Origin: Haloarcula salinisoli | GTDB lineage: Archaea > Halobacteriota > Halobacteria > Halobacteriales > Haloarculaceae | Length of the DNA stretch: 64,000 bases | Direction of reading: 5' to 3' | Assembly (NCBI RefSeq): GCF_019599405.1 | Contig: NZ_RKLQ01000006.1 | Coordinates: forward strand, 62,001-126,000 | In this document: piece after piece, positions 47,879 through 64,000 of the stretch | Numbering within the stretch: position 1 is the stretch's first letter | Layout of the letters: every line of letters begins with the position of its first letter | Made by a program: the position numbers and the translations under genes | The notes under the pieces: model-generated | What the model was told of the DNA's origin: nothing | Databases searched by the model: none | Seen by the model: only the letters and a program-made list of their open reading frames with translations

Positions 47879-48502
47879 ATGACTGACGGCAATCGGATGG
47901 CTGTCACCGGGGAGGCGAGCTGTGCGTGCAAGATCGGTCGAACGGCCGAGACGTACGGGATTGACGATATCGACGGACTGCTTCGCGACCGGCGGGCAGA
48001 GGGCGCGAGTCTCCGCCGTCTGGAGACCGTCGTGAACGAGGCCGTCCTTCGGGCGGCCCTCGAAGAAACTGGCACCCACGTGCCAGGGGATGTCACAGAT
48101 ATCTACCGGACCCTGACCGACGGGGAGACGAGCGCGGGCGTGCGGACGGAGACACGGGCGTGGTTATCACGGGTCGGTGTCGACCCAGACGACCTCGAGG
48201 GCGACTTCGTCTCCTATCAGACCGTTCGCACCCATCTCCGGGAGTGTCTCGACGTCGACACCACCCGTGAGAGCACACTGTCAGTCGACGACGCAGTGGG
48301 GACCATCGAGTGGGCACGCTCCCGGAGCGAAGGTATCGTTCGCCGGACCGTCGAACGACTCGACGAAACTGATGGGTTCCACACCGGCACCGTGGACGTG
48401 ACACACGTCGTCCGGGTCTCCTGTGGGGACTGTGGGGCCAGCTATCCAGTCGAGCGGTTTCTCGACCGGGGCGGGTGCGACTGTGGCGGCGCTGACCAGT
48501 GA
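47879..48502 (+). CDS. rdfA: Rod-determining factor RdfA homologue
   Basis: 207 residues. The RdfA pattern is clear: CKIGRTAETYGIDDIDGLL, LRRLETVVNEAVLRAALEET, DVTDIYRTLTDG and VDPDDLEGDFVSYQTVRTHLRECL. A C-terminal zinc ribbon (CGDCGASYPVERFL...CDCG) ends the protein. In Haloferax volcanii RdfA is needed for rod-shaped cells; its biochemical role is unknown to me. The next gene, an archaea-specific SMC-related protein, starts 44 bases later behind a GAGGAG ribosome-binding site, so the pair is an operon, an arrangement I recall from other haloarchaea. Confidence 0.85.
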   Translation: MTDGNRMAVTGEASCACKIGRTAETYGIDDIDGLLRDRRAEGASLRRLETVVNEAVLRAALEETGTHVPGDVTDIYRTLTDGETSAGVRTETRAWLSRVGVDPDDLEGDFVSYQTVRTHLRECLDVDTTRESTLSVDDAVGTIEWARSRSEGIVRRTVERLDETDGFHTGTVDVTHVVRVSCGDCGASYPVERFLDRGGCDCGGADQ

Positions 48503-48546: not shown

Positions 48547-50436
48547 ATGGCTGACAGACACGAACCACCGCGGGTAGTCGTCGAGAATATCGGCGGCATC
48601 GACGCCGCGCAGGTCGGGCTGTCCGACGGCGTCTCCGTACTGACTGGCAGGAACGCGACGAACCGGACCTCGCTGCTGCGGGCGCTCGGTGCCGCGCTGG
48701 GCGGGGGGACGGGCGCCCTGAAAGCTGACGCCGACCGTGGGTCGGTGACGCTGTCTTTCGACGGGACCGACTACACCAGGACCTTCGAGCGCGACGGCGA
48801 CTCGGTCACTGTCGGTGGTGACCCGTACACCACGGATACGACGCTCGTCGACCAGTACTGCAGTTTGCTGGCCGATAACCCCGCCCGTCAGGCAGTGGCC
48901 CGGGGGGACGCCGATGCGCTTCGGTCGTTCATCATGGCCCCCGTGGACACGGACGCCCTGGAGGCGAAGATTCGACGGACACGGCAGGCTATCGACTCGC
49001 TCGAGACGGACCGCGAGGAGACGAAACAGACGATAGCGAGGCGGGAGTCACTGGAGCGACAGCTGGCCGACCACCGCGAGGAACTGGCCGAGGTCATCGA
49101 GGAACTCGACGCTGTCCGGGCGGCCGTCGACGAGTTCGAGACAGACCTCGAGGCCGTCGAGCGCGCCGAAGACGTGGTCGCGGAACTCACAGAGGCCCGA
49201 GAGGAATACGAGCGGGTCCGGAACCGACTGGAGACCCAGCGGGCGGCCGTCGCGTCGCTCCGTGAGGAACGAGCGGACGTCCGTACCGAGCTGTCGGAGC
49301 TATCGGTCCCGGACGTGGACAGAGACCAGCTCGAAGCCGAGATAGAGCGGCTCCAGCGACGCAAGCGTGACCTCGAAACCACGATATCCAGCCTCCTCTC
49401 TGTCGTGGAGTTCAACGAGCAGTTGACCGGTGATGGGGACGGCCCAGTGCTGGGTGACGCCGTCGCGGACCCCACGACGGGGACAGTCGAGTGCTGGACC
49501 TGCGGGACCTCCGTTGAACGGGCGGCTATCGACGACCATCTCGAGGACCTCCGTACGGTCATCGACGAGAAGCGGGCCGAACGAAACGAGATTCGCTCCA
49601 CACTGGAAGAGCGGCGTGGCGACCTGTCCGACCACCGCGAGGTGGCCGACAGACGCGGGTCGCTGGAGGCCGAAATCGCCGACATCGAAGCGGAGATAGC
49701 GGACCGCGAGGCGGCCATCGAGGAGCTGGCAGACCAGACAGCACAACTCAACAGTCGCATCGAGGAGCTGGAGTCGGCCGCCGAGAACTCCGAGGAACTC
49801 GGAGAGAGCGCCATCCTTGAGCAGTATCGCCGCCGTTCGGAGCTCGCGTACGAACGAGACCAGCTCGAAGAGCAGATCGCATCCGTGGAAGCCGAGCTCG
49901 CGACAGTCAGCGACGCGGAGTCCCGGCTCGAGGATATCGAGGACCGCCTCGAGGACCGCGAGGCGGAACTCGAACGCGCGCGGACCCGTATCGAGGAACT
50001 GGAGCGGTCGGCCGTCGAGACGTTCAACGACCACATGGAGACCGTCCGTTCGCAACTGGGCTACGAGAACATCGAACGGGTGTGGATCGAACGTATCGTG
50101 GCCGAGGACGCCGAAACCGACTTTGCCCTCCACGTGGTCCGGTCGAGGGCCGACGGCGCCGTATACGAGGACACGGTTTCCCATCTCTCGGAGTCCGAAC
50201 GGGAGGTCATCGGGCTGGTCGTCGCGCTGGCGGGCTATCTCGTCCACGACGTCTACGAGACGGTCCCGGTGTTGCTGCTCGACTCGCTCGAGGCCATCGA
50301 CGCCGACCGCATCGCCGCGCTGGTCGAGTACTTCGCCGACTACGCCGACCACCTCGTCGTCGCATTGTTGCACGAGGACGCACAGGCGCTCCCTGACGAA
50401 TACGAGCGCATCGAGATGGGTGAGGCGCCGGCCTGA
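48547..50436 (+). CDS. Archaea-specific SMC-related protein (Rad50-like, non-canonical P-loop)
   Basis: 629 residues. The N-terminal head has a P-loop-like GRNATNRTS at residues 34-42, where the invariant Gly-Lys of Walker A is Asn-Arg. Long coiled coils (about 140-300 and 330-505) flank a CxxC zinc-hook-type turn (CWTCG near 316). The C-terminal head shows the signature-like HLSESEREVIGLVVAL and a Walker-B-like VPVLLLDSLEAID. The architecture is Rad50/SMC with divergent nucleotide motifs, so ATP use is uncertain. Translationally close to rdfA (SD GAGGAG at 48534-48539). A second member with the same NRTS motif lies at the right window edge. Confidence 0.87.
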   Translation: MADRHEPPRVVVENIGGIDAAQVGLSDGVSVLTGRNATNRTSLLRALGAALGGGTGALKADADRGSVTLSFDGTDYTRTFERDGDSVTVGGDPYTTDTTLVDQYCSLLADNPARQAVARGDADALRSFIMAPVDTDALEAKIRRTRQAIDSLETDREETKQTIARRESLERQLADHREELAEVIEELDAVRAAVDEFETDLEAVERAEDVVAELTEAREEYERVRNRLETQRAAVASLREERADVRTELSELSVPDVDRDQLEAEIERLQRRKRDLETTISSLLSVVEFNEQLTGDGDGPVLGDAVADPTTGTVECWTCGTSVERAAIDDHLEDLRTVIDEKRAERNEIRSTLEERRGDLSDHREVADRRGSLEAEIADIEAEIADREAAIEELADQTAQLNSRIEELESAAENSEELGESAILEQYRRRSELAYERDQLEEQIASVEAELATVSDAESRLEDIEDRLEDREAELERARTRIEELERSAVETFNDHMETVRSQLGYENIERVWIERIVAEDAETDFALHVVRSRADGAVYEDTVSHLSESEREVIGLVVALAGYLVHDVYETVPVLLLDSLEAIDADRIAALVEYFADYADHLVVALLHEDAQALPDEYERIEMGEAPA

Positions 50437-50718
50437 CTCGCAAGCGACTGGTCTGGTGCCCGTGGCTGGTCTGCCGACCGTGGCTACCTATCGCAACAGA
50501 CTACGGCGTGCTGGTTAGTGCCTCTAAATATAAACAAAACCGGTATAATAAAAATCTGACACTAAAACACTCTTCTCCCGCCCCATCGACTGTGCCAGCC
50601 AGACGAGATGACCGGTTTTGCAGAACCGACCCTGGCTGTGCCGATACGCGCACCTACCGAGACCGACGTCGTCCTGGCGCTCTCGTCGGCTTCGTCAGCG
50701 CCAGTACCACAGTTTCAA

Positions 50719-51219
50719 ATGCGTGGCTGTGAAACTGTGTGTGTGAATACCGAGCAGATTACTGCCGACGACATCATCGACTGGAACTCGCTCGGCGATA
50801 TCGTGGCGTCCTTCGAAAAACGCGGGCTGGAACCGCGACAGCGGATGGGCGCCCAGAACGAGCGGTTGCTCGGTATCGGCAACGACGAGTATATCGTCGT
50901 CATCGAGGCGTACCCGGACGAATCAGCGGACGATTACGTTCCCGAGAGCACGTCCCGACACACGAACATCGTCGCCTCGAACGATTTCGAGCGGTTCACG
51001 TTCATCTCACGCATCCGGAGCTGGCAGGAACAAAAGCGTGGGAACGTCCAGTACCAGAAATTCGCCTTCGAGAAAGAGGCGTTTCGCCAGGGGCTGGACA
51101 ACGAGGCCCAGATCCTCCAGAACATCAATGCAATCCAGTACCAGTCCTCGACGCCGCCTATCGAACGGTTCCGGCAGGGGTCGAAACGGGCACTCACGTA
51201 CGTCCGGAATCTAATCTAA
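50719..51219 (+). CDS. Orphan domain resembling the N-terminus of BREX/Eco57I-type methylases
   Basis: 166 residues from the ATG at 50719 (or a GTG six codons on). The run IVASFEKRGLEPRQRMGAQN, IVVIEAYPDESADDYVP, HTNIVASNDFERFTFISRIR and FAFEKEAFRQGLDNEAQILQ resembles the first ~170 residues of large haloarchaeal Eco57I/PglX-like restriction-methylase proteins as I remember them. The catalytic parts are absent and the frame stops cleanly. It could be a remnant or a free-standing adaptor. The upstream AT-rich stretch (50520-50570) contains TATA-like blocks. A 12-base direct repeat, GCGAACGTACTA, follows at 51228 and 51244. Confidence 0.5.
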   Translation: MRGCETVCVNTEQITADDIIDWNSLGDIVASFEKRGLEPRQRMGAQNERLLGIGNDEYIVVIEAYPDESADDYVPESTSRHTNIVASNDFERFTFISRIRSWQEQKRGNVQYQKFAFEKEAFRQGLDNEAQILQNINAIQYQSSTPPIERFRQGSKRALTYVRNLI

Positions 51220-51263
51220 TCGTATTAGCGAACGTACTACTGGGCGAACGTACTAGTTTCCAA

Positions 51264-51740
51264 TCAAGAAATCTCCCCCCGCTCACCCGACCCGCTATCA
51301 CCGCCCGACCCGACAGCGTGCTCGTCCGCGTAGACGGTCACGTCGCCGTCCTCCGTCAGGCCGACGGTAACCTCCGCTGTCAGCTGGTTCGCGTCCGTGA
51401 CGTCCGCGAGCAGCCCGTACAGGTGGGCGTACAGCTCCGGCCGGCAGTAGGCTATCTTCACGCCGGCCTCGTCGCCGTGGTCGTAGACGGCGGTGACGAG
51501 GTCGTCGAACGACGCCCCCGCCGCGACCGTGAACTGGACCGGGGCACGGAGCGCCCGAACGAGTTCGAGCGTCCGGCGTGCCTTCTCGACGTTCGCCTCG
51601 GCCGCCCGCTCGATAGCGCTGACGTTGGACGCTGTCGTCCCCAGTTCCTCGGCGACTGCCCGCTGTGTCGCGCCACTCTCGCGCCGTTCGAGCACCTCCA
51701 GTTGCCGCTCGGTGAGAATCGTCCCGTCTGTCTCCACCAT
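51264..51740 (-). CDS. Tfx family DNA-binding regulator
   Basis: 158 residues. The N-terminal helix-turn-helix (LTERQLEVLERRESGATQRA, VAEELGTTASNVSAIERAAE) is the Tfx signature; residues ~60-140 form the Tfx C-terminal domain (RAPVQFTVAAGASFDDLVTA). Methanogen Tfx binds near molybdenum-dependent formylmethanofuran dehydrogenase genes. Here it is divergent from a molybdate/tungstate-type transporter, consistent with oxyanion-responsive control. A perfect 7-2-7 inverted repeat lies just upstream of its ATG. Confidence 0.87.
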   Translation of the reverse strand: MVETDGTILTERQLEVLERRESGATQRAVAEELGTTASNVSAIERAAEANVEKARRTLELVRALRAPVQFTVAAGASFDDLVTAVYDHGDEAGVKIAYCRPELYAHLYGLLADVTDANQLTAEVTVGLTEDGDVTVYADEHAVGSGGDSGSGERGEIS

Positions 51741-51747
51741 AGCGATT

Positions 51748-51763
51748 CAAACAGAACTGTTTG
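51748..51763. promoter_or_regulatory. Candidate operator CAAACAGAACTGTTTG between tfx and the transporter
   Basis: A perfect inverted repeat with 7-base arms and a 2-base spacer, 8 bases from the tfx ATG. It is followed by the palindrome ATAAGCTTAT (51766-51775), which could hold TATA boxes for both directions. The gene pair suggests Tfx binds here. Confidence 0.6.
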
Positions 51764-51800
51764 GGATAAGCTTATTGGAGGAACAGAGTAAATTGAACAC

Positions 51801-52697
51801 ATGCGTGATGAGTCGGGGGTCAGCCGACGCGCGGTCCTGGCAGCGCTGCCTGCCGTCGGGCTCGCGGGCTGTTCGGGCGTGGTGGGCGGGGGCGAGGCGG
51901 TGTCGATGCTCGTCGCCGGCAGTCTCAGCAACGCCGTCGAGAACGGCCTCCGGCCGGCAGTCGATGCCCGGCTCCAGCCGGAGGCACACGGCTCTGCGGC
52001 GGCGGCGAGGCTGGTCGCCGACGGCGGGAAAGACCCCGATATCGTCTCCCTGGCGGACGTGACCCTGTTCGACGCTTTGCTCTCGGTCGACTGGCTCGCC
52101 GAGTTCGCCACGAACGCGCTGGTCGTCGCTTACGACCCCGACACTGGGGCCGGTCGACGGCTCTCCGGGGGCCGTGACCCCTGGTACGAGGTGCTGCTTG
52201 CCGAGGACACCTCGCTGGGCCGGACCGACCCGGACCTGGACCCGCTTGGCTACCGGACGCTGTTCTGCCTGGAACTGGCGACTGGCTACTACGGGACCGA
52301 CCGGGACCTCCGCAAAGCGGTCCCGGAGCCCGACCAACGGTACCCCGAGACCCAGCTCCTCAGCCAGTTCGAGACCGGCGCCATCGACGCCGCCGTCGTC
52401 TATCGCAACATGGCCGAACAACGGGACTACGACTACGTCGACCTCCCGGCCGAAATCGACCTGAGCGACCCCGCTCTCGCCGAGCGCTACGGGACGACAA
52501 GCTACGAACTCGCCGACGAGACCGTCGTCTCGGGCGACGTTATCAGCTACGGCTCGACGCTCCGTAACGAGTCCGAGCGGACCCGCGACGTCTTCGAGAC
52601 CCACATCACGGGCGAGTACCTGACCGACTTCGGGTTCACTGTCCCCGACGACTATCCACGCTACACAGGCAATGTCCCGGAATCGCTCACGGACTGA
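51801..52697 (+). CDS. Molybdate/tungstate-type ABC transporter solute-binding lipoprotein
   Basis: 298 residues. A Tat lipoprotein signal (SRRAVLAALPAVGLAGCSG) has a lipobox Cys near residue 26. The mature part follows the WtpA/ModA layout: SMLVAGSLSNAVENGLRPAV at the start, DIVSLADVTLFDALL, FETGAIDAAVVYRNMAEQRD, and a final FTVPDDYPRYTGNVPESL. It would bind an oxyanion outside the membrane. The permease gene overlaps its 3' end. Molybdate versus tungstate cannot be decided. Confidence 0.82.
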   Translation: MRDESGVSRRAVLAALPAVGLAGCSGVVGGGEAVSMLVAGSLSNAVENGLRPAVDARLQPEAHGSAAAARLVADGGKDPDIVSLADVTLFDALLSVDWLAEFATNALVVAYDPDTGAGRRLSGGRDPWYEVLLAEDTSLGRTDPDLDPLGYRTLFCLELATGYYGTDRDLRKAVPEPDQRYPETQLLSQFETGAIDAAVVYRNMAEQRDYDYVDLPAEIDLSDPALAERYGTTSYELADETVVSGDVISYGSTLRNESERTRDVFETHITGEYLTDFGFTVPDDYPRYTGNVPESLTD

Positions 52698-53481
52698 GTC
52701 CGTCGTCGGCCGGCTCGACTGGCTCTCGGCGGCGTTCGTCCTCGGTGGCTTGCTTCTGTGTTACTACCTCGTGCCGCTGGTATCGCTGGTGCTCAGCCAG
52801 CCACCGGGTGCAGTCCTCCGTAGCCTGCAGTCGCCTATCGTCGTCTCGGCCACGGCGACGTCGCTGACGGCAGCGCTGCTCAGCACAGCGATTGCCACAG
52901 TGTTCGGGCTCGGACTGGCGTACTGGCTGGCTCACGCGGAGGGTCCGCTGGCGACGCTTGTCACCTCGCTTGTCGTCCTTCCGCTAGTCTTGCCACCTGT
53001 GGTCAGTGGCTTGTTGTTGCTGACGGTGGTCGGTCGGGGCACGCTGGTGGGGCAGCTGGCGGCCGCGAACGGACTGGCGCTGACCCGCTCGTTTGTCGGC
53101 GTCGTCCTCGCACAGACGTTCGTCGCCTCGCCGTTCGTCGTCATCACCGCCAAAGCCGCCTTCGAGAGCGTCGACCGGAGTCTGGAAGACGCTGCACGCA
53201 CCCTCGGTCAGGGTCGCTTTGGGACCTTCCGTCGGGTGACGCTCCCGCTGGCCTGGCCCGGAGTTCTTGCGGGTATCACGCTCGCGTTCGCCCGCGCCAT
53301 CGGGGAGTTCGGGGCGACGGTCATGCTCGCGTACTACCCACGGACGATGCCGGTCCAGATATGGGTCTCGTTCAGGAACCAGGGCCTGGAAACCGCCTTT
53401 CCGGTCGCGCTCATCCTCGTCGGCGTCGCCGTGGCGACGATACTCGTGCTCAACGTCCTCGGAACGAACCCGCTGGAGTGA
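52672..53481 (+). CDS. Molybdate/tungstate-type ABC transporter permease
   Basis: 269 residues with six membrane helices and the cytoplasmic EAA loop DRSLEDAARTLGQGRFGTFR then VTLPLAWPGVLAGITLAFAR, as in ModB/WtpB. GEFGATVML is the typical last-third motif of molybdate permeases. It overlaps the binding-protein gene by 26 bases. No ATP-binding subunit follows; the next genes are on the other strand. The ATPase must therefore be encoded elsewhere or shared. Confidence 0.88.
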   Translation: MSRNRSRTESVVGRLDWLSAAFVLGGLLLCYYLVPLVSLVLSQPPGAVLRSLQSPIVVSATATSLTAALLSTAIATVFGLGLAYWLAHAEGPLATLVTSLVVLPLVLPPVVSGLLLLTVVGRGTLVGQLAAANGLALTRSFVGVVLAQTFVASPFVVITAKAAFESVDRSLEDAARTLGQGRFGTFRRVTLPLAWPGVLAGITLAFARAIGEFGATVMLAYYPRTMPVQIWVSFRNQGLETAFPVALILVGVAVATILVLNVLGTNPLE

Positions 53482-53482
53482 G

Positions 53483-53659
53483 TTAGCAGACCTGTGGCTG
53501 GTCGACCACACAGTTGCCACAGCGGGGACACAGCAGGCGGCGTCGGTCGACCCGGTCGTCGCCGATCCAGTCCCCGCCGAGCGGGCTCTCGTGGTCGCAG
53601 GTCGAACAGAACAGTCGGGTCTTGGCGGGCCGAAGCTTGCGTCTGTGTTCGAGGCTCAT
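53483..53659 (-). CDS. 58-residue zinc-ribbon protein
   Basis: The ATG at 53659 opens a 58-codon frame. Two zinc knuckles, FCSTCDHESP and CPRCGNCVV, are about 25 residues apart. Its ATG overlaps the stop of the upstream membrane gene (ATGA), so they are translationally coupled. The tetrad and the coupling make it a real small gene; function unknown. Confidence 0.75.
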   Translation of the reverse strand: MSLEHRRKLRPAKTRLFCSTCDHESPLGGDWIGDDRVDRRRLLCPRCGNCVVDQPQVC

Positions 53660-53901
53660 CTGGCGGGGGTGTAGGTGTGACCGATGGCGGCACAGCAGGC
53701 GTTCAGGACGACGAGACCGACGAACACCATCGGCGTGGCCGTCGCGGTGCCTGACAGCAACACGGCGACGATGACGAGGGGCAGCGGGATACTCGCCCAG
53801 AAGGCCGCGCCGCTGACGGCTCTCCGGAGCGTGCCGACGAGGGCGCCGACGTCGGGGGTTCGAGCGGGCAGTCCTGGGGTGGAGGGGTCGAGCGTGGACA
53901 T
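53656..53901 (-). CDS. 81-residue two-helix membrane protein
   Basis: From the ATG at 53901. Two hydrophobic spans (FWASIPLPLVIVAVLLSG; PMVFVGLVVLNACCAAIG) follow a polar N-terminus. Coupled to the zinc-ribbon gene by a 4-base overlap. No family named. Confidence 0.65.
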   Translation of the reverse strand: MSTLDPSTPGLPARTPDVGALVGTLRRAVSGAAFWASIPLPLVIVAVLLSGTATATPMVFVGLVVLNACCAAIGHTYTPAR

Positions 53902-54383
53902 TGGGCGTCGTCTATCTCCACCATCGACCCATACCTGCATATAAACACCAGACCCCTAGCGTGGATTCAGGATTCTTTACCGTATTACCCTTTTTTCAGC
54001 CCATTTTACTACGTAACTGCTGACGATAAAACGCCGCCAAAGGGGGCCAGATATTTTATACGACGATCTGCGTCCGTTATACCGCTCTTCGCTGAGGTCG
54101 ACCCTGGCGGTGGGCCAGGTCGACGCTTCCCACCCGGTCACAGACGGTGCCGTGTGTCCCGGGGCCGACCGTCCCAGCGTCTACGAGCCGCCTCGATGTG
54201 GCTGTCGATTCAGTCTTCTCCGCTGGTTGTGCACCACGTTACGAACCACCTTACGCCCGTTTCGCAAATTTTGAGAGTTATTAACTAACAGGTGGGCAGC
54301 TATTTTAACGGTAACTACTACCCATATGACGTCCGCTTTTGTCCCGACCAATCACTACCCAGTGACACCACCACAGGTCCGCG
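53902..54383. other. Intergenic stretch, AT-rich in parts
   Basis: About 480 bases without a convincing gene. A run of T at 53990-53996 may terminate or start transcripts. TTAACTAACA at 54281-54290 resembles one arm of the long-spaced inverted repeat with one change but has no partner arm. Confidence 0.45.
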
Positions 54384-54527
54384 ATGATTGAGACGCTGCG
54401 GTCGCTTTTCTCGCGGGGACAGACCGTCGTCCACGAGTGTCGCCAGTGTGGCCACACCGTCGATGGAGACACCGGCCGCTGTCCGGTCTGTGGGACCGAA
54501 AGCATCGCGCGATACCCGGTCGAGTGA
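54384..54527 (+). CDS. 47-residue zinc-ribbon protein
   Basis: The ATG at 54384 opens a frame ending at TGA 54525-54527. MIETLRSLFSRGQ leads into a rubredoxin-like ribbon CRQCG...CPVCGTESIARYPVE. Both CxxC knuckles are complete. Such proteins are frequent in haloarchaea; role unknown. Confidence 0.75.
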   Translation: MIETLRSLFSRGQTVVHECRQCGHTVDGDTGRCPVCGTESIARYPVE

Positions 54528-54607
54528 CTGCGCCGGGAGTCCGCCGTCGGCGTCGTTCCTGCGACGTATCGGATGGATTTATTTCGGGTGACCCGGAACA
54601 GGACCCC

Positions 54608-55801
54608 ATGTCAGGGCGACAGACGCGGCGACGGTACCTCGCGACACTGGGGGTGGCTGGGGCGGCCGCGTTGGCTGGCTGTTCCAACGACTCCGACGAC
54701 CGAACTCCGACCGGTGGCCCCTCTATCCCCGAAAGCGTCGGTCGCTGGCCCTCGTTCGGCTACGACACCGCCAACACGGGGGCGGCGGCCGACGAGACCG
54801 GGCCGACGGCGAACGTCATCGTCCAGTGGGGGTATCCCACTGGAAAGCAGGTGTTCAGCTCGCCCGCTGTCGTCGACGGCAGTCTCTACGTCGGGAGCAA
54901 CGACGGCCACGTCTACTGTCTCTCGGCCGTCAACGGCGCCCGGCAGTGGCGACTTCCCACAGAGGGGCTGGTCCGTTCGTCGCCGGCCGTCTCGGACGGG
55001 ACCGTCTTCGTCGGCAGTTACGACGGGTACCTCTACGCCCTCGCGGCCGGTACTGGGGAGGTTACGTGGCGCTACGAGGCGGGTGCCTCGGACAACCCGC
55101 TGGTAGACCGTGCCCCCGTCCGGGCATCGCCGACGGTCGCGGACGGGACGGTGTACGTCGGTAGCGATAGCGACCGAGTCAGCGCCGTCTCGACGTCGGA
55201 CGGGAGCGAACAGTGGACCGCCGGAACCGATGGGTCGGTCCAGACAACACCCGCAGTGACCGGCGGTAGCGTTTACGTCGGGGACAACGGCGGCGCTGTT
55301 ACCGCGCTGTCGGCCGCGGACGGCAGCCAACAGTGGAAATCCGACGTCGTCGACGGCGTCACGGGTTCGCCGGCTGTCGCGGACGGGCGCGTCTACGTCG
55401 GCACTGACGGCGGCGACGTCGTGGCGCTGTCGACGTCGGACGGCAGCGAGCAGTGGCGATATGGGACGGACGGGCCGGTCCACTCCTCGCCGGCCGTCTC
55501 CGAGGGGACCGTCTACGTCGGGAGCGACGACAGCAGTGTCACCGCACTCTCGGCCTCGGGCGGTGAAAAGCAGTGGTCCTTCGAGACCAACGACGCGGTT
55601 CGGTCGGCGCCGTCGGTCGTGGGCGGCAACGTCTACGTCGGCAGCGACGACAGCCAGCTGTACATCCTCTCGGCGGGTGACGGGACCGTCCAGTGGGAGC
55701 TATCGACCGGCGGTCCGGTGTCGTCCTCACCGGCAGTGGTGGACAACGTCGTCTTCGTCGGCAGCGGCAACGGCAACGTCTACGCCATGACGGCGCCCTA
55801 G
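54608..55801 (+). CDS. PQQ-type beta-propeller lipoprotein (BamB/PQQ_2-like)
   Basis: 397 residues from the ATG at 54608. A Tat lipoprotein signal (TRRRYLATLGVAGAAALAGC) is followed by eight or so ~40-residue blades, each with a phrase like SSPAVSDGTVFVGS and ALSASDGSEQW. The propeller is presumably anchored outside the cell and may act as a protein-binding scaffold; PQQ binding is not implied by the repeat. The stop overlaps the convergent pfkB stop by 4 bases. Confidence 0.85.
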   Translation: MSGRQTRRRYLATLGVAGAAALAGCSNDSDDRTPTGGPSIPESVGRWPSFGYDTANTGAAADETGPTANVIVQWGYPTGKQVFSSPAVVDGSLYVGSNDGHVYCLSAVNGARQWRLPTEGLVRSSPAVSDGTVFVGSYDGYLYALAAGTGEVTWRYEAGASDNPLVDRAPVRASPTVADGTVYVGSDSDRVSAVSTSDGSEQWTAGTDGSVQTTPAVTGGSVYVGDNGGAVTALSAADGSQQWKSDVVDGVTGSPAVADGRVYVGTDGGDVVALSTSDGSEQWRYGTDGPVHSSPAVSEGTVYVGSDDSSVTALSASGGEKQWSFETNDAVRSAPSVVGGNVYVGSDDSQLYILSAGDGTVQWELSTGGPVSSSPAVVDNVVFVGSGNGNVYAMTAP

Positions 55802-56703
55802 CTGTTCGAGACCGGCTGGACGCCGCTTTCATCGGCTTCGGGCAGCGGCGGCACGTCGGTCCCCGGCGTCGAGACCGCTGCGGTGGCGGCGACGACGCCG
55901 GTGTGCAGGGCGACAGCGTCGTCGGCGCCGGCGTCCCTTGCCGCAAGCACGCCCGAAAGCAAGGCGTCGCCAGCGCCGACCGTATCGACGACCTCGCAGT
56001 CGATGGCGGGCTCGTGGACGACGTCGTCCGCTGTGACGAGAACGGCACCGTCTGCGCCAAGCGAGGCGATGACACAGTCAAAGCCCGTCTCTCGGAGGGA
56101 GCTGGCGGCCGCGACGGCCGATTCGCGGTCGTCGACGGACCTGTCCGTCGCCGCTTCGAGCTCCGGGGCGTTGGGTTTGCAGATGGCGTAGTGCGCGTCG
56201 AGCTCTCGCAGTAGCGCGCCTTCGACGTCGACAGCGGTCTCCCAGGGGCCGGCCCGGGCGAGGCGGTCGATTGCGCCGGTATCGAGGCCCGATGGGAGGC
56301 TGCCCGCGACGACCACGATATCGGGCGACAGCGACGTGAGCCGCTCGACGATGGCCCCAACCTCGGCGTCGGAGACTACCGGGCCGCGCTGGTTGAGCTT
56401 GTACTCGCCGTCGGTGGCGAGGACGGTCGAGTTCAGCCGCGTCGTCCCGTCGATATCGACGAACCGGGACTCGATACCCTGGGCCGCCAGCCGTTCGGTG
56501 ACGAACCGGCCGAGAAACCCACCGACGACACCGGTAGCCACCGTCTCGGTCCCCATCTCGCTGAGGTACTTCGAGACGTTGATACCCTTCCCGCCGGCGT
56601 CAAACTGGGCGTCGTCGACCCGGATGACCTCACCGGGCGAGAGCGGCTGCTCGGTGGTGACCGTCTGGTCCACCGCCGGATTGAGCGTGACGGTGGCTAT
56701 CAT
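55798..56703 (-). CDS. pfkB: 1-phosphofructokinase (PfkB family)
   Basis: 301 residues from the ATG at 56703. Ribokinase-family motifs: GGKGINVSKYLSEMG near residue 37 and the anion-hole/catalytic DTVGAGDALLSG near 248. It phosphorylates fructose-1-phosphate, the PTS product, to fructose-1,6-bisphosphate. Last gene of the fructose operon; its ATG overlaps the stop of the ALDH-like gene by one base. The start LNPAVDQTV matches FruK-type sequences. Confidence 0.92.
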   Translation of the reverse strand: MIATVTLNPAVDQTVTTEQPLSPGEVIRVDDAQFDAGGKGINVSKYLSEMGTETVATGVVGGFLGRFVTERLAAQGIESRFVDIDGTTRLNSTVLATDGEYKLNQRGPVVSDAEVGAIVERLTSLSPDIVVVAGSLPSGLDTGAIDRLARAGPWETAVDVEGALLRELDAHYAICKPNAPELEAATDRSVDDRESAVAAASSLRETGFDCVIASLGADGAVLVTADDVVHEPAIDCEVVDTVGAGDALLSGVLAARDAGADDAVALHTGVVAATAAVSTPGTDVPPLPEADESGVQPVSNS

Positions 56704-58088
56704 CACTGGAGCACTCGCTTGGTTCGGGTCAGCCGCGTCAGGGCCTCGTGCACTCGCCGGCCGTCGAGACTGCCCAGACGGTCCTCGGGCACATCGCCGC
56801 CCCCGTGGACGCTGATGCTACCCGCGTCCACGGCCTCCGCCACGTCCATCGCCAGGCTGTGGCGGGCGGTGAACACGCTCACGGACTGTGACGGGCGCCC
56901 GGCCGCTGCCAGGTCCAGGGCGTCCGCGTCGGATGTAAACGGTGTCACCGGGACGATGGGTGTGGACTGGCGGTCTTCAAGGAGCGCCGCGTCGGCCGGT
57001 ACGTCCGAGAGGACGGTCGGCCGGAACTGGCGGCCGTCGGCACTGCCGCCGCGGACCAGCGTCGCCCCCTTCGTCGTCGCGTCGTCGACGAAGTACGCCA
57101 GGCGGTCGGCCCCGGCGGCGTCTCGCTGTGGCGCGACCGTCGTGGTCTCGTCGAACAGGTCGCCGCCGGTCCAGTCGGCGATGTGGCCGTCGAGGCGCTC
57201 GACCAGCTCGTCCTGTATCGACGCGTGGACGAGGACGTGACAGGTCCCCGCGAGGCGGCGCTCGACGGCACTGGGCCCCCCGTCGGCGATGGCGGCGGCT
57301 GCCGCGTCGAGGTCGGCGTCCGGGAAGACCAGCGTCGTCGTCCCGCCGCCGAGGCGCTGCTGGAACCGCGTCACACCGGCGCGCCCGGCCGCAACCGCGG
57401 CGTCGAGGACCGCGTCGGGCCCCCCACGACCGGTCAGTGCGTGTTCGGCGTCGGCCGCGAGCGGGACGAATCCGACCGCGGCTTCGGGGACGTGTTCGCG
57501 GACGAGCTCGGTCAGTATGGACACGGCGACCGGTGTCGCTGCCGGGGCCGTCACCACGACGCCATTGCCGGCGCCGAGGGACGGGGCGAGCTGCAGGGCC
57601 GCCGTCGCCAGCGGCGCTCGAACGGACGGGCGACACTGCACGACCCCGAGTGGGACCGCGGCGACGAGTGAGTTGTCGCCGGCTTCTGTGGCCGTCGTCC
57701 AGGTGCGATACGGTCCGGTGAGCGAACGGAGCACGTCGGCGACGCTGTCGAACTGCGCCGCGGCCGTCGCCGCTTCCTCGCGCGCGCTTGCTATCGGGAC
57801 GCCGGCCTCGCGGACTAGAGCGTCCGTGAGTTCGTCGCTCCGGTTCCTGATGCCAGCCGTGATTGCTTCACACCAGGTCGCACGCTGGATGACGGCCGTC
57901 TCCAGAGCCGTCGGGACCGCCCCGCTCGCGGCGGACACCGCGTCGGCGACCGTCGTCTGGTCGCCGGTGGCGACAGTCGCGAACACCTCGTCGGTCGTCT
58001 GGTCGGGGACGTCGGCCGACCCGCTCCCGTCGACTTCTTCGCCGGCGACGACCGGTCGAACCCGCCGTTCGGTCTGTGCAACGTCCAT
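56703..58088 (-). CDS. Aldehyde-dehydrogenase-superfamily protein lacking the catalytic Cys
   Basis: 461 residues. The ALDH fold is recognisable: PLGVVQCRPSVRAPLATAALQLAPSLGAGNGVVV in the cofactor domain, RFQQRLGGGTTTLVFPDADL replacing the ELGGK loop, RPTVLSDVPADAALLEDRQS, and SGSIS-like endings. At the place of the nucleophile (normally GQxC before the R-x-x-V-H strand), the sequence reads VERRLAGTCHVLVH, where the aligned position is Leu and the only Cys is shifted. Dehydrogenase activity is doubtful. It sits between fba and pfkB with 3-base and overlapping junctions, so it is a fixed operon member. A structural or regulatory role is inference. Confidence 0.75.
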   Translation of the reverse strand: MDVAQTERRVRPVVAGEEVDGSGSADVPDQTTDEVFATVATGDQTTVADAVSAASGAVPTALETAVIQRATWCEAITAGIRNRSDELTDALVREAGVPIASAREEAATAAAQFDSVADVLRSLTGPYRTWTTATEAGDNSLVAAVPLGVVQCRPSVRAPLATAALQLAPSLGAGNGVVVTAPAATPVAVSILTELVREHVPEAAVGFVPLAADAEHALTGRGGPDAVLDAAVAAGRAGVTRFQQRLGGGTTTLVFPDADLDAAAAAIADGGPSAVERRLAGTCHVLVHASIQDELVERLDGHIADWTGGDLFDETTTVAPQRDAAGADRLAYFVDDATTKGATLVRGGSADGRQFRPTVLSDVPADAALLEDRQSTPIVPVTPFTSDADALDLAAAGRPSQSVSVFTARHSLAMDVAEAVDAGSISVHGGGDVPEDRLGSLDGRRVHEALTRLTRTKRVLQ

Positions 58089-58091
58089 CGA

Positions 58092-58880
58092 TTACCCCTC
58101 CAGCACGTCGTCGGCCGTCGCCTCCTCGAAGACGACAGATTCGAGCTTGTCGAGGATAGCCTGGGGGTCTTCGCGCTGCCAGACGTTGCGGCCGACGGCC
58201 AGCCCGGAGACGCCGACGTCCATGCAGCCGGCGACGAGTTCGAGGAAGTCGCGGTCGGAGGTCTTCGACCCGCCAGACAGCAGGACGCGATTGTCCGCGG
58301 CGGCGCGGACCGCGTGGGCCATCGCGTCCTTGCTTCGGGGGTACTTCACCTTCGTGAAGTCCGCGCCCAGTTCCAGCCCGAGCCGTGCGGCGTAGGCGAT
58401 GATGGACTCGCTACGATGTGACTTGACGGCCTGCCCGCGCGGGTACGACCACATCGCGATTGGGAGGTCGTGGTCGCGGGCGGCCTCCTGGACCGGGCGG
58501 AAGTCCTCGAACATATCGGGCTCGCGGTTGACGCCGGGGTAGATGGTGTAGCCGATGGCGTCGGCGCCCAGCTCGGCGGCGTAGTCGACGGTCCAGTTCT
58601 TCGGCGAGTAGGGGTCGCCCATCCAGAGGTCGGAGCTGCCGTTGAGTTTGGCCAGGAGATTGACGTCGTCCTCGTAGCTGGGATAGTAGGTCTCGGCCAG
58701 TCCCTTCCCTACTGCCAGTGCCGTGACGGCGTCGTGGGTCGCCATCTCGAACACTTCTCTGGGGTCGAGGCGCTCCTCGACGCCGCTGAACTGTTTGGGG
58801 CCGTGTTCCAGGCCGTGGTCGTGAGCGAGTACCAGTGTCTTGTCGTTGCGAACGAGTGGTGAGTCGGTGAAATCGTACAT
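58092..58880 (-). CDS. fba: Fructose-1,6-bisphosphate aldolase, archaeal class I
   Basis: 262 residues, the usual length of DhnA-type archaeal class I aldolases. The Schiff-base Lys lies in FTKVKYPRS near residue 178; LAHDHGLEHGP opens the barrel and LLSGGSKTS marks the phosphate site. It cleaves fructose-1,6-bisphosphate to DHAP and glyceraldehyde-3-phosphate, completing the fructose pathway started by the PTS and PfkB. There is a 108-base gap to ptfB upstream, which may carry an internal promoter. Confidence 0.93.
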   Translation of the reverse strand: MYDFTDSPLVRNDKTLVLAHDHGLEHGPKQFSGVEERLDPREVFEMATHDAVTALAVGKGLAETYYPSYEDDVNLLAKLNGSSDLWMGDPYSPKNWTVDYAAELGADAIGYTIYPGVNREPDMFEDFRPVQEAARDHDLPIAMWSYPRGQAVKSHRSESIIAYAARLGLELGADFTKVKYPRSKDAMAHAVRAAADNRVLLSGGSKTSDRDFLELVAGCMDVGVSGLAVGRNVWQREDPQAILDKLESVVFEEATADDVLEG

Positions 58881-58988
58881 GTGTCTCTGTTGGGGTGTCT
58901 GCGTGCGTTCTGCGGTCGGGTGTCGGTGCGTGGCCGCGGGTCGGCGCGTCGACGACGACTCGTCGTCGGGCGACTGTCGGCGACGATA

Positions 58989-59429
58989 TCAGCTCAGCAG
59001 GCGCTTGAGCCGGGCGACGAGGCTCTTCGAGCGGTCGCCGCCGCGGCGAACGTCCGGCGAGCCGCTGTCGTGGTCGGTATCGTCGGCCTCGTCGGTGGCG
59101 ACTTCGCGTTCGGTGTCGGGGTCGCCCTCGGCGGCCTCCTCGGCTTCGTCCATGAGGGCCTCGACGTCGTTGACAGCGGCCTTGATGGTTCCTGTGACCA
59201 GCGGGACGTCCTCGAAACGGTCACGATTGACCGAGGTGTCTGCGGCGATGATAGCGGCGTCGGCGGTTTCGATGTCCTCGGCCGAGAGCTCGTTCTCGGC
59301 GCCCATCGCGCCCTGTATCTCGACTTCGATGTCGTGACCGCGTCTTTCGGCTTCCTGTTCTAGGTTCTCGGCGCCCATCTGACTGTGTGCGATGCCGGTC
59401 GGACAGGCGGTGACTGCGACGAATTTCAT
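58989..59429 (-). CDS. ptfB: PTS fructose transporter subunit IIB
   Basis: 146 residues from the ATG at 59429. KFVAVTACPTGIAHSQMGAE carries the phosphorylated Cys9. Residues 1-100 are the IIB domain; the acidic/basic tail (residues ~100-146) ends in SLVARLKRLLS, perhaps an amphipathic membrane anchor. It passes phosphate from IIA to fructose bound by IIC. Its ATG overlaps the ptsI stop by 4 bases. Confidence 0.92.
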   Translation of the reverse strand: MKFVAVTACPTGIAHSQMGAENLEQEAERRGHDIEVEIQGAMGAENELSAEDIETADAAIIAADTSVNRDRFEDVPLVTGTIKAAVNDVEALMDEAEEAAEGDPDTEREVATDEADDTDHDSGSPDVRRGGDRSKSLVARLKRLLS

Positions 59430-61105
59430 TGGATTGTCTCGTGGAGTTCGCTGCGTGTTGCGACACGACGAGCGCTGTCGGCACGCTCGCGTGCGGCGCT
59501 GTACTCGGTCTCGCTGACGGCGACTTTCACGTCGGGGACGGTGACGGCGCTCATGCTGAGCTCGTCCAGTCCCAGCCCGACCAGGAGTTCGGTGACGTCG
59601 GGGTTGCCGGCCATCTCGCCGCACATCCCGACCCAGGCGTCGTTGGCATGGGCCTGCTCGACCGTGCGGCCGATGGCCCGGACCACGCCCGGATGCGTCG
59701 GGTCGTGGAGGTCACCGACGCGCTCGTTCTCCCGATCGGCCGCCATCACGTACTGCGTGAGGTCGTTCGTCCCGATAGAGAGGAAGTCAACCCGCCGGGC
59801 GAACTCGTCGGCCATGAAGACGGCGCTCGGTGTCTCGACCATCACGCCCAGCGACGGGCGCTCGTGGTCGACGCCACGGTCCGCGAGGTCGGCGGCGGCG
59901 TCGTCGACAGCCTCGATGGCCGCTTCGAGCTCCTCGACGGTCGCCACGAGGGGGAACATCACGTTCAGCTCCCCCGCGCCGTCGGCGGCCGCCCGAAGCA
60001 GCGCTCGCAGCTGCGTGCGGAACAGCTCGGCGTCGGGGTCCAGCGAGCGCCGGATGCCCCGCTCGCCCAGGAACGGGTTCTCCTCTTCGGGGAGGTCGAG
60101 ATACGGAATCTGCTTGTCCCCGCCGATGTCCAGCGTCCTGACGACCACGCGGCCGTCGGGGAAGGTATCCAGCGCGTCCCGGACGGTCTCGTACTGCTCG
60201 TCCTCGTCGGGCGGGGACTGGCGGTCGAGGAAGAGGAACTCCGTGCGGTAGAGCCCCACGCCGTCGGCGCCGCGGGCCGCCGCCGGCTCCAGTTCCGCAG
60301 GGCGGCCGACGTTGGCGGCGACCTCTATCTCGCGGCCGTCGCTCGTCTCGACCGACTCCTCGACGACGTCTGCACCCTCCTCGGCACGCGCGGCCTCGCG
60401 CTCGGCTTCGTCGGGCCCGACGAGTAGCTCGCCGGCGTCACCGTCGACGACGACCTCGGTGCCTTCGGACACGTCGTTCAGCGCTTCGCCGAGGCCGACG
60501 ACGGCCGGCAGCGCCAGCGACCGGGCGAAGATGGCGGCGTGTGAGGTCCGGCCTCCCGTTACCGTGGCAAAGCCCGCCACCGTCTCCGGGTCGAGCTGGG
60601 CCGTGTCGCTCGGGGTGAGCCGCTCGGCGAGGACGACGCTGCCCTCGGGCAGGTCGGCCAGGTTCACCCGGTCGCCCCCGGTGAGCAGGCGCAGCAGGCG
60701 GTCCCGTACGTCACGGAGGTCGTCGGCGCGCTCGGCCATGCGGCCCTCCATCCCCTCGAACTGCTCGATGTGCACGCCGAAGGCGTCGTCGACGGCGTGG
60801 GCCGCCGGGCGACCCTCCTCGATGCTCGCCACTACTGCCTCCTCGATGGTCGGGTCCTCGAGGAACTGGATGTGAGCGTCGAAGATGGCGGCTTCGTCCT
60901 CGCCGACGCGCTCTGCGGTGGCGTCGCGCTCGCGCTCCAGTTCGGCGCGGGCGGTGTCGACGGCGTCGGCAAAGCGGTCGCGCTCGGCCTCGACGTCGAC
61001 CGACTCGTCCGCGTCCGGGAGCGTGATTTCGGGGTCGTACCAGACGACGGTACCGAGTCCCGAGCGGGGCGTCGCGCCGGTGCCGGTGAGTGTGCTGGCT
61101 GCCAT
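59426..61105 (-). CDS. ptsI: PTS enzyme I (phosphoenolpyruvate-protein phosphotransferase)
   Basis: 559 residues, near the bacterial length. The phospho-His is in GGRTSHAAIFAR (residue ~190). The PEP-binding barrel shows LYRTEFLFLDRQSPPDEDEQ, a metal site FLSIGTNDLTQY, and the Cys of VGMCGEMAGNP. It uses PEP to phosphorylate HPr. Archaeal EI genes of this type were probably acquired from bacteria. Two bases separate it from ptsH. Confidence 0.94.
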   Translation of the reverse strand: MAASTLTGTGATPRSGLGTVVWYDPEITLPDADESVDVEAERDRFADAVDTARAELERERDATAERVGEDEAAIFDAHIQFLEDPTIEEAVVASIEEGRPAAHAVDDAFGVHIEQFEGMEGRMAERADDLRDVRDRLLRLLTGGDRVNLADLPEGSVVLAERLTPSDTAQLDPETVAGFATVTGGRTSHAAIFARSLALPAVVGLGEALNDVSEGTEVVVDGDAGELLVGPDEAEREAARAEEGADVVEESVETSDGREIEVAANVGRPAELEPAAARGADGVGLYRTEFLFLDRQSPPDEDEQYETVRDALDTFPDGRVVVRTLDIGGDKQIPYLDLPEEENPFLGERGIRRSLDPDAELFRTQLRALLRAAADGAGELNVMFPLVATVEELEAAIEAVDDAAADLADRGVDHERPSLGVMVETPSAVFMADEFARRVDFLSIGTNDLTQYVMAADRENERVGDLHDPTHPGVVRAIGRTVEQAHANDAWVGMCGEMAGNPDVTELLVGLGLDELSMSAVTVPDVKVAVSETEYSAARERADSARRVATRSELHETIQ

Positions 61106-61107
61106 GA

Positions 61108-61386
61108 CTATGCCTCTAGTTCGTCCTCGGGGGTCGTCAGTATTCGCTCCAGTTCGTCGAGCACTGCCTCGGCCTCGGGCCCGTCGGCGACGAGGCGGAG
61201 TTCGTCACCCTCGCCCACGCCGAGGCTGGTGACGGCAATCATGCTCTGGGCGGGCACGAGATCGCCCTCGGGCGGGCCGGCCTCGACTTCGGCCTCGTGG
61301 TCGTTGACGGCCTCGACGAACAGCGCCGCCGGGCGGGCGTGCAGCCCCGCCTCCGGGACGATTTCGACGGTACGCTCTTCGCTCAT
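61108..61386 (-). CDS. ptsH: PTS phosphocarrier HPr
   Basis: 92 residues. The phospho-His is His16 in GLHARPAALFV. The region QSMIAVTSLGVGEGDEL corresponds to the Ser-46 loop of bacterial HPr and keeps a Ser, although no HPr kinase is visible. It relays phosphate from EI to IIA. The gene overlaps ptfA by 4 bases. Confidence 0.94.
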   Translation of the reverse strand: MSEERTVEIVPEAGLHARPAALFVEAVNDHEAEVEAGPPEGDLVPAQSMIAVTSLGVGEGDELRLVADGPEAEAVLDELERILTTPEDELEA

Positions 61387-61856
61387 GCAATCGCCTCCCG
61401 GAGCGTCGCCTGCACCTCGCTCTCGTCTGTGGCCCCGTGCAGGCGCTCGCGGACGTCGTCGTGCATCAGGGCCCGCGACAGCGAACTCAGTATCTGCAGG
61501 TGGTCTTCGCCGCCCTCCTCGGGGACGAGTATCAGGAAGATGAGCGTCGCCGGCTCGTCGTCCATGCTCCCGAAGTCGACGCCCGCCTCCGAGCGGACAA
61601 AGGCCAGCGAGGGCCGGTTGACGGCCTCGGTCTTCGCGTGGGGAATGCCGATACCCATTCCGACGCCGGTGGTCGTCTCTTCCTCGCGAGCGAGCAAGGC
61701 GTCGAGGGCCGCCTGCCGGTCCTCGATGCGGCCCGACTCGACGACGAGGTCGAGCAGATACTCGATGGTCGCCTCCTTCCCTTCGGGTGGTTCGGACAGC
61801 GAGATGTGGCTCGCCGGAATCAGTTCGTCGATGTCGTCTGTAATCTGGTCTGTCAT
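61383..61856 (-). CDS. ptfA: PTS fructose transporter subunit IIA
   Basis: 157 residues. The phospho-His is His73 in GMGIGIPHAKTEAV, with the fructose/mannitol-type IIA context LIFLILVPEEGGEDHLQILS. It accepts phosphate from HPr and passes it to IIB. Separate IIA, IIB and IIC genes are the haloarchaeal arrangement, unlike fused FruA. Confidence 0.93.
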   Translation of the reverse strand: MTDQITDDIDELIPASHISLSEPPEGKEATIEYLLDLVVESGRIEDRQAALDALLAREEETTTGVGMGIGIPHAKTEAVNRPSLAFVRSEAGVDFGSMDDEPATLIFLILVPEEGGEDHLQILSSLSRALMHDDVRERLHGATDESEVQATLREAIA

Positions 61857-61862
61857 TGTGGG

Positions 61863-63008
61863 TTAGTCGTCGCTCGGCTGTGCCGTGCCTGCGCTCGACT
61901 CGGTGCCGGCCTCGACGCGGTCCTCGAAGTCGGGCTTGAGGAGGAGCGCCACGGCCGCAGTGACGAACGAGCCCAGGACGATACAGCCCAGGAAGATGAA
62001 CGGTTTGTTCGACAGCGGAATGACGAAGATACCGCCGTGGGGCGCGGGCATCGTGACGTTCAGCGCCATAGATGCGGCGCCGCCGGCGGCGCTGCCGGCG
62101 ACGACGGCGGGGATGACCCGCAGGGGGTCGGCCGCGGCGTAGGGAATCGCGCCCTCCGTGATGAACGAAAGGCCAAGCACGACGCCGCTCTTTGCGTTCT
62201 CGTACATCTCGGCCGCGTACTTATGTGGGGAGATGAAGTTCGAGATGGCCAGCCCGATAGGCGGGACCATCCCGCCGATCATCACGGCCGCCATGGGGGC
62301 GTAGATGCCCTCGGTGATGAGCCCCGTCGAGAAGACGTAGGCCACCTTGTTCACCGGACCGCCCATGTCGAAGGCCATCATCCCGCCGAGGATGAGCCCG
62401 ACGAACATCGCCTGCCCGCCCTGCATCCCTTCCAGAAACCCGGTCAGACTCGCGTTAGCGAGCGCGACCGGAACGCCCAGCACGAACAGCATGATAGGCG
62501 TGAGGACCGCCATCGTCGCGACGGGAATGATGAGGACGGGCATCATCGGGACGAGGAACTCCGGGACGTCCAGGCCTTTGAACCAGCGCGCGACGTAGCC
62601 GGCCAGCAGCCCGGCGACGATGGCGCCGAGGTAGCCGGCGCCGGCCTCGCCGCCGGAGACGCCGATGACGGCGGCGGCTTCGGAGACGACGACTCCATCC
62701 TGGATGATGAACGACAGCAGGAATCCGGGTGCAAGTCCTGGACGGTCCGCGATGGCGTAGGCGATGTAGGCCCCGAGGATGGGGACCATGATGGTGAGGC
62801 CGGCCGTGCCGACCTGGGCGAGGAACCAGCCCGGTGAGCCGGTGTTATCGAAGACTGCCTGGGTATCCCCCACAGCGTACGCGAGTGCGAGGAAGATACC
62901 GCCAATCGTGACGAACGGAATCATGAACGACACGCCGGTCATCAGGTCCTCCTTGACGGAGGTCACGTGCGACCGGAGCAGTCGTTCGAATTTGGGGCTC
63001 TCTGACAT
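61863..63008 (-). CDS. ptfC: PTS fructose transporter subunit IIC
   Basis: 381 residues from the ATG at 63008 (SESPKFERLL); the upstream in-frame reading adds a leader after the likely promoter. About 8-10 membrane helices. GLSFITEGAIPYAAADPLRV is the conserved sugar-site motif of fructose IIC. The C-terminus is short and polar. First gene of the operon; it forms the fructose channel that phosphorylates at C1. Promoter-like and palindromic sequences lie 35-65 bases upstream. Confidence 0.93.
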   Translation of the reverse strand: MSESPKFERLLRSHVTSVKEDLMTGVSFMIPFVTIGGIFLALAYAVGDTQAVFDNTGSPGWFLAQVGTAGLTIMVPILGAYIAYAIADRPGLAPGFLLSFIIQDGVVVSEAAAVIGVSGGEAGAGYLGAIVAGLLAGYVARWFKGLDVPEFLVPMMPVLIIPVATMAVLTPIMLFVLGVPVALANASLTGFLEGMQGGQAMFVGLILGGMMAFDMGGPVNKVAYVFSTGLITEGIYAPMAAVMIGGMVPPIGLAISNFISPHKYAAEMYENAKSGVVLGLSFITEGAIPYAAADPLRVIPAVVAGSAAGGAASMALNVTMPAPHGGIFVIPLSNKPFIFLGCIVLGSFVTAAVALLLKPDFEDRVEAGTESSAGTAQPSDD

Positions 63009-63042
63009 TGGTGCGACACCTGCGGCTACGTCCACTATCTAC

Positions 63043-63072
63043 CATAAACGTTAGCGTTTTTGAACGAATTCG
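63043..63072 (-). promoter_or_regulatory. Candidate promoter/operator of the fructose operon
   Basis: It contains the inverted repeat AAACG-TTAG-CGTTT (63046-63059), the palindrome CGAATTCG (63065-63072) and, on the minus strand, a TATA-like TTTATGG. The position is 35-65 bases before the ptfC ATG. GlpR-type control of fructose genes is known in Haloferax; whether this is such a site is inference. Confidence 0.4.
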
Positions 63073-63220
63073 ATTGATATTGTGCATTATGGGGATTCGG
63101 GTGACTGTATCTGTTTGGAATGAGGGGTGGGTCACAACTGACCTAACAGCCATATGCTTGTTATTCTGTCCTACTGAAACCGACCAATTTCGGCACCCCG
63201 GTCACCGCGCGCGCCCCAGA

Positions 63221-63227
63221 ATTTAAG
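63221..63227 (+). promoter_or_regulatory. TATA-like element for the right-edge SMC-related gene
   Basis: ATTTAAG lies about 28 bases before the ATG at 63252, the spacing of a leaderless haloarchaeal promoter. Confidence 0.5.
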
Positions 63228-63251
63228 AGCGCGACCGGCAGACGTAGGGGT

Positions 63252-64000
63252 ATGCACCCGGCGACGACCGCCGATGCGGACGCGACCGTTACGGTCGAGA
63301 ACATCGGTGGCATCGACTCGGCGGCGGTGGAGCTGTCGCCGGGCGTCACCGTCCTCGCCGGCCGGAACGCGACCAACCGGACATCGTTCCTGAAGGCGAT
63401 GATGGCCGCGCTGGGTAGCGACTGGACCGCGGTGAAAGGGGACGCAAAGCAGGGCGAGGTCTCGCTCACGCTGGGCGAGCAAACGTACGAACGCCAGCTC
63501 ACGCGGGCCGAGGACGGCATCGTCAGCTCCGGCGACGGACTGCTCGCGGACCCGACGCTCGCTAACCTCTTTGCGTTCCTGCTGGAGGACAACGAGGCGC
63601 GCCAGGCGGTCGTCCGGGGGGAGGACCCCAGGGACATCATCATGCGGCCGGTTGACACCTCGGAGCTGCGACGGGAGATTCACGAGGCCGAACGGCGCAA
63701 GGCCGATATCGACGACGAACTTGACGACATCGCCGACCTCAAACAGCGGCTCCCAGACCTGGAACAGCGCCGCGCACAGAAGGAAGCTGAGATAGCCGAC
63801 GTCCGCGAGGAGCTGGCCGCGGTCGAGGACCGCCTCGACGAGCGGGACCTCACGGTCGACCTGACCCAGACCAACACGGAGGTACTGGAGACCAAACTCG
63901 ACGAACTGCGTGCGACCCGGGAGGAGCTGCGGCGTGTCCGGGGCGACATCACGACCGAACAGGAGAGCCTCTCGGCGCTGCGGGACGAACGCGGCCGGCT
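63252..64000 (+). CDS. Second archaea-specific SMC-related protein, 3' truncated by window
   Basis: The frame opens at the ATG at 63252 and runs without a stop to the right edge; 249 codons are visible. The head matches the 48.5-kb paralogue: TVENIGGIDSAAVELSPGVT, then the P-loop-like GRNATNRTSFLKAM with Asn-Arg replacing Gly-Lys, and DNEARQAVVRGEDPRDIIMR followed by PVDTSELRREI. A coiled coil begins at about residue 140. Two members in one window suggests either gene duplication or distinct partners. No RdfA precedes it here; the neighbour is the divergent fructose operon. Confidence 0.85.
   Translation, partial: MHPATTADADATVTVENIGGIDSAAVELSPGVTVLAGRNATNRTSFLKAMMAALGSDWTAVKGDAKQGEVSLTLGEQTYERQLTRAEDGIVSSGDGLLADPTLANLFAFLLEDNEARQAVVRGEDPRDIIMRPVDTSELRREIHEAERRKADIDDELDDIADLKQRLPDLEQRRAQKEAEIADVREELAAVEDRLDERDLTVDLTQTNTEVLETKLDELRATREELRRVRGDITTEQESLSALRDERGR

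Follow-up and report, generated by a model that had tools for sequence, protein, structure and literature searches.

The two SMC-like proteins encoded in the window (the whole 64,000-nucleotide stretch of Haloarcula salinisoli DNA analyzed here) are ordinary members of the known archaea-specific SMC-related proteins (ASRPs), specifically of the Sph2-4 type of the haloarchaeal Sph family, and share with their whole clade a fixed loss of both catalytic residues of the Walker motifs. We lean, with some reserve, toward the reading that Sph2-4 proteins are a selected, non-hydrolyzing SMC-like latch or scaffold, which probably binds nucleotide and, together with RdfA, serves cell shape and genome maintenance. 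A large SMC-like clade that is needed in vivo for shape and for the equalization of genome copies carries this loss, so Sph proteins are probably misannotated as ATPases, and whether SMC-like function is possible without hydrolysis, with RdfA as a partner, becomes a question that can be tested in the tractable Haloferax.

Copy 1 (48547..50436, plus strand, 629 aa) scored about 604.5 to 604.6 bits with the whole-protein ASRP profile NF045487, the curated cutoff of which is 300 bits, and its assignment is also backed by an AF2 model and fold matches. Copy 2 has only its 5' part in the window (63252..64000, plus strand); the entire gene, coding for 662 aa, was recovered from genome contig C6 (G000:C6:125252-127240, equal to L010:352-2340) and scored 639.9 bits with the same profile. 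Instead of the canonical Walker A GxxxxGK[S/T], both translations contain GRNATNRTS (48646..48672, residues 34 to 42, in copy 1 and 63360..63386 in copy 2, both on the plus strand), and NATNRTS occurs just twice in the six-frame translation of the window, once per copy. The catalytic Glu that follows the Walker B Asp is equally absent, with LDS in both copies; in copy 1 the translation and alignment place Ser at this position of LLLDSLEAID (50272..50301, plus strand), where the D-loop Asp is kept. Copy 1 also codes for the CxxC zinc hook, CWTC, identified by translation and alignment (49492..49503, plus strand), and for LSESE, a variant of the ABC/SMC signature (50185..50199, plus strand) present in 151 of 153 homologues. 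All these motifs had been correctly picked out in the preliminary description of this DNA, which named Asp-Ser for copy 1 alone; the full gene from the genome shows that copy 2 has it too, within an identical LLLDSLEAID, together with CWTC and LSESE. What that description missed was the named family, ASRP/Sph, and the presence of RdfA beside each copy. The nearest named relative found was Haloarcula rara, with 90% protein identity for copy 1 and 93% for copy 2. The source genome codes for four ASRPs, the other two being of the Sph1 type and located on contig C7. A cluster for fructose uptake (PTS) and catabolism (window positions 55798-63035) adjoins copy 2, and the order fructose PTS genes, ASRP, and RdfA is also found on plasmid pNG700 of Haloarcula marismortui (L323).

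As a family, ASRPs take in the Halobacterium Sph proteins and the Sulfolobus coalescin (PMC9389158). Both copies share with H. salinarum Sph2 and Hfx. volcanii Sph2-4 the profile NF045487, the arrangement of head, coiled coil, and CxxC hook, and the RdfA neighbor, and we found no difference that would set them apart. Copy 1 is confidently predicted to have the head fold of Rad50 and SMC. Its AF2 model (mean pLDDT of 90.2) has the P-loop between a strand (28-33) and a helix (37-50), and the coiled coil with its CxxC hook lies between the N- and C-terminal head halves, with CWTC flanked by the helices 135-294 and 325-504. The top Foldseek matches of the model in the PDB were Rad50 7zr1 (E value of 4.4e-16) and SMC 5xei (9e-12), and the closest solved folds were ATP-gamma-S-bound Rad50, SMC, MukB, and Lamassu heads; by sequence, no relative was found in the PDB or in the phage genomes searched. 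Rad50 and SMC resemble both copies in head fold and coiled coil, and Rad50 also in the CxxC hook, but they are ATPases with GK, Glu, and SGGE, where the copies have NR, Ser, and LSESE.

We aligned 212 distinct ASRPs or near relatives, drawn from haloarchaea and from other genomes within the phylum, and classified them by Walker A positions 6 and 7 and by the Walker B residues. Among the 170 sequences of the Sph2-4 type, neither GK nor the Walker B catalytic Glu occurs even once (two NK/DS rows included). The NR/DS class is formed by 153 of them, all with NATNRTS and LDS, and the remaining classes are NK/DA (10 sequences), GR/DS (3, including H. salinarum Sph2, with GRNATGRTS and LDSLEAID), NK/DS (2), NR/DA (1), and DR/DS (1); this tally should not be read as an unbiased prevalence, since mainly top-scoring genes were fetched. 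Both Haloferax mediterranei and Haloarcula marismortui have GRNATNRTS and LDSLEAID. The odd P-loop belongs to the whole clade, beyond the two genes of the window, and its presence in both copies is not due to chance, since the motif is fixed across the clade. Canonical GK is found outside of it. Sph1-type proteins, represented by H. salinarum Sph1 (SNFQGKSS/LDG), a protein of Haloferax lucentense (SNWQGKSS/VDR), and the two further ones of the source genome, are like the copies in family, RdfA neighbor, and zinc hook but differ in keeping GK, while the Walker B Glu has been lost in 25 of 27, where the Asp is followed by G, R, N, D, Q, or S; in the other 2 it is followed by E. These two (L113 and L231, one of them from the window's own genome) are the sole Sph1-type proteins with LDE, in which the catalytic residue has been either retained or regained. 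The non-haloarchaeal ASRPs of the phylum differ from the copies by GK (as in NASGKTS) and DE in the seven genes read; coalescin ClsN is the named crenarchaeal member of the family. A few distant GK sequences are also among the 212. The loss is specific to the ASRP family, as SMC and Rad50 from this archaeal class are intact: GPNGSGKS and LDE were present in 30 of 30 SMC proteins, and Rad50 has LDE in 30 of 30 and GK in 29, the missing P-loop probably being due to an over-long open frame. One ASRP (L226, G112:C5:24700-31700) has a further broken P-loop, GRNEADRTP, and an altered signature, LPTSE, and still adjoins RdfA; it is possibly a decaying copy.

The variant motif is maintained by purifying selection and is not the product of decay. 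Residues N36, A37, T38, N39, R40, T41, and S42 show zero variation among the 153 NR/DS sequences, which span 50 genera and in which the median alignment column is only 56% conserved; the class definition itself fixes N39, R40, D579, and S580, but not the flanking positions. By contrast, position 2 of the P-loop can be R, K, E, Q, N, or H. R40 is encoded by each of the six Arg codons (CGA, CGG, CGC, CGT, AGA, and AGG), which indicates selection on the amino acid. T41, S42, D579, E582, D585, S548, E549, E551, and both hook Cys are invariant or nearly so, the Walker B Asp, the D-loop Asp, and the signature Ser being strictly invariant. The earlier idea of a functional variant is therefore borne out by a motif fixed in 153 genes. 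The family alignment was expected to tell whether canonical GK prevails: it is absent throughout the Sph2-4 clade and is the rule both in Sph1, the sister group, and among the non-haloarchaeal relatives.

The root of the ASRP family tree, built with the motif columns excluded, is unstable. With ten outgroup rows the tree splits Sph1 from Sph2-4, in agreement with published trees (PMC11276520, PMC9389158), while with three the root moves, weakly supported, into the NR group; a constraint that keeps Sph2-4 together comes at a cost of 0.77 log units and is not rejected (p-AU of 0.48). The simplest account, though not a proven one, is that GK was lost once, in the ancestor of Sph2-4. In the tree, one NK/DA group and the GR/DS proteins, to which H. 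salinarum Sph2 belongs, are nested, later changes; in this nested group NR/DS became NK/DA, with Lys back and no Glu back, so Lys can return. The pairing of Arg with Ser in NR/DS and of Lys with Ala in NK/DA looks striking as a covariation but was rejected, with very few independent changes available (three pairs, one informative, P = 1).

Genetic data come from homologues in Hfx. volcanii; within Haloferax, NATNRTS/LDS was read in Haloferax mediterranei. Deletion of either sph3 or rdfA leaves only disks (PMC10869688), in line with the role in cell shape that had been suggested from the window alone. The sph2 mutant is mostly rod shaped, gene conversion is impaired by each of the four sph deletions, and a double deletion of sph2 and sph4 failed (PMC11276520). 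A later text states that Sph3 promotes disks, or plates (PMC13286277); in the original that it cites, the sph3 deletion gives only disks, meaning that rods depend on Sph3.

The residues replaced and those kept in Sph2-4 fall into two functional sets. SMC-superfamily proteins are thought to run on cycles of ATP binding and hydrolysis; in Rad50 and SMC, the P-loop Thr/Ser and the Walker B Asp hold Mg, the signature Ser contacts the gamma-phosphate on the opposite head, and the Lys and the Glu serve hydrolysis. The fixed replacement affects what would be the residues of the chemistry (Walker A Gly-Lys to Asn-Arg and Walker B Glu to Ser), and the parts expected to hold Mg-nucleotide and close the heads (P-loop Thr/Ser, Walker B Asp, D-loop Asp, and signature Ser) are kept, much as in laboratory hydrolysis-dead mutants, where the holding residues stay and those of the chemistry are replaced. 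We propose that Sph dimerizes via the zinc hook and that its heads would engage on a bound nucleotide, probably ATP, that serves as a structural ligand and is not hydrolyzed. The engaged heads would form a long-lived latch or scaffold and not a cycling motor, RdfA would bind or gate Sph, and the complex would act in rod/disk shape and in genome maintenance. The nucleotide-independent or alternative-nucleotide SMC of the preliminary description fits less well, since conservation of the Mg-binding Thr and Asp, of the D-loop Asp, and of the signature Ser points instead to binding without hydrolysis. A point against a latch is that the P-loop may be disturbed by the replacement of Gly with Asn. 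Replacement of the Walker A Lys by Arg often, but not in every case, stops hydrolysis and leaves binding in place (PMC6254361).

The main rival, which we regard as unlikely, is a true pseudo-ATPase: heads that bind no nucleotide, with the P-loop residues turned into a protein-protein interface, either head to head or head to RdfA, of a nucleotide-independent cytoskeletal scaffold. Gly-Lys and Glu are indeed all gone, but Thr41, Ser42, Asp579, Asp585, and Ser548, the counterparts of the Rad50/SMC residues touching Mg-nucleotide across the dimer, are invariant, and a ligand-free scaffold would not obviously keep the whole set. Also on its side are the action of homologues in cell shape (PMC10869688) and the yeast Msh2/Msh6 proteins, where Lys-to-Arg can abolish binding (PMC6254361). 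Taken to its end, an SMC/Rad50 machine would have become, across one archaeal class, a nucleotide-independent cytoskeletal scaffold of Sph2-4 and RdfA, shape setting, jointly essential, and with no ATPase cycle, an outcome we likewise consider improbable. Still less probable is a slow but real ATPase, in which Arg40 would stand in for Lys, preserving its charge, and another residue, such as Glu582 or one from RdfA, would polarize the water. In LDSLE, Glu582 does not vary among the 153 sequences, and Lys is tolerated, as seen in the NK/DA groups, but this Glu sits two positions past the Ser and not where Rad50 and SMC carry the catalytic residue of Walker B, and no canonical catalytic residue is left around that motif. 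Haloarchaeal proteins are Lys-poor, and one ASRP (that with GRNEADRTP) does look decayed. Nevertheless, a lineage-wide decay or composition effect, by which a haloarchaeal Lys-to-Arg bias would have eroded the P-loop with no functional meaning, is hardly credible given the GK that SMC and Rad50 keep in this class, a new motif far more constant than the median column, and homologues that are needed in vivo (PMC10869688, PMC11276520).

We found no published description of the clade-wide loss of both catalytic residues. The accessible part of the paper on the ASRP family sets out its Walker A and Walker B motifs, calls the superfamily ATPases, and makes no mention of a loss (PMC9389158). A literature search for pseudo-ATPases or degenerate Walker A motifs in SMC proteins gave none, a weak negative with most subscription journals outside the search.

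The candidate partner, the rod-determining factor gene rdfA (PF21811), lies directly upstream of copy 1 on the same strand (47879..48502, plus) with a gap of 44 bp and scores 195 bits, the Pfam cutoff being 27 bits; that of copy 2 is convergent, with a 25-bp overlap. RdfA is within 600 bp of 128 of the 153 NR/DS genes and also adjoins most Sph1-type genes. Across 53 haloarchaeal genomes, ASRP and RdfA are both present in the same 44 and both missing from the same 9, which we give as a profile with no P value because related genomes are not independent. Adjacency and co-occurrence are not proof of binding, and the contact of RdfA with Sph is our inference. The AF2 model of RdfA (pLDDT of 90.8) is helical with a Cys-rich C terminus, and a fold search of the PDB gave nothing significant, so the label of a kleisin-like or Mre11-like partner cannot be assigned. 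The ASRP-RdfA synteny of haloarchaea has already been published (PMC10869688).

In three non-haloarchaeal genomes, an RdfA-like gene also comes immediately downstream of an ASRP (L083:4935-5651, L085:2386-3039, and L087:2144-2875), one scoring 35.7 bits with PF21811, above the cutoff, and the others 26.4 and 22.0 bits, below it. To our knowledge, RdfA has been described as mostly haloarchaeal, and these genes are new as far as our literature search shows; the pairing therefore probably predates Halobacteria. From the position in a published tree, our guess is that the three hosts are Methanosarcinales. Two more non-haloarchaeal genomes (family code f34) code for RdfA-like proteins with 47 to 54 bits to PF21811 (L256:1526-2104 and L257:4773-5465) and no adjoining ASRP. 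The source genome itself has a fifth RdfA gene (L259:3114-3725, or G000:C1:693613-694224), which stands without an ASRP neighbor.
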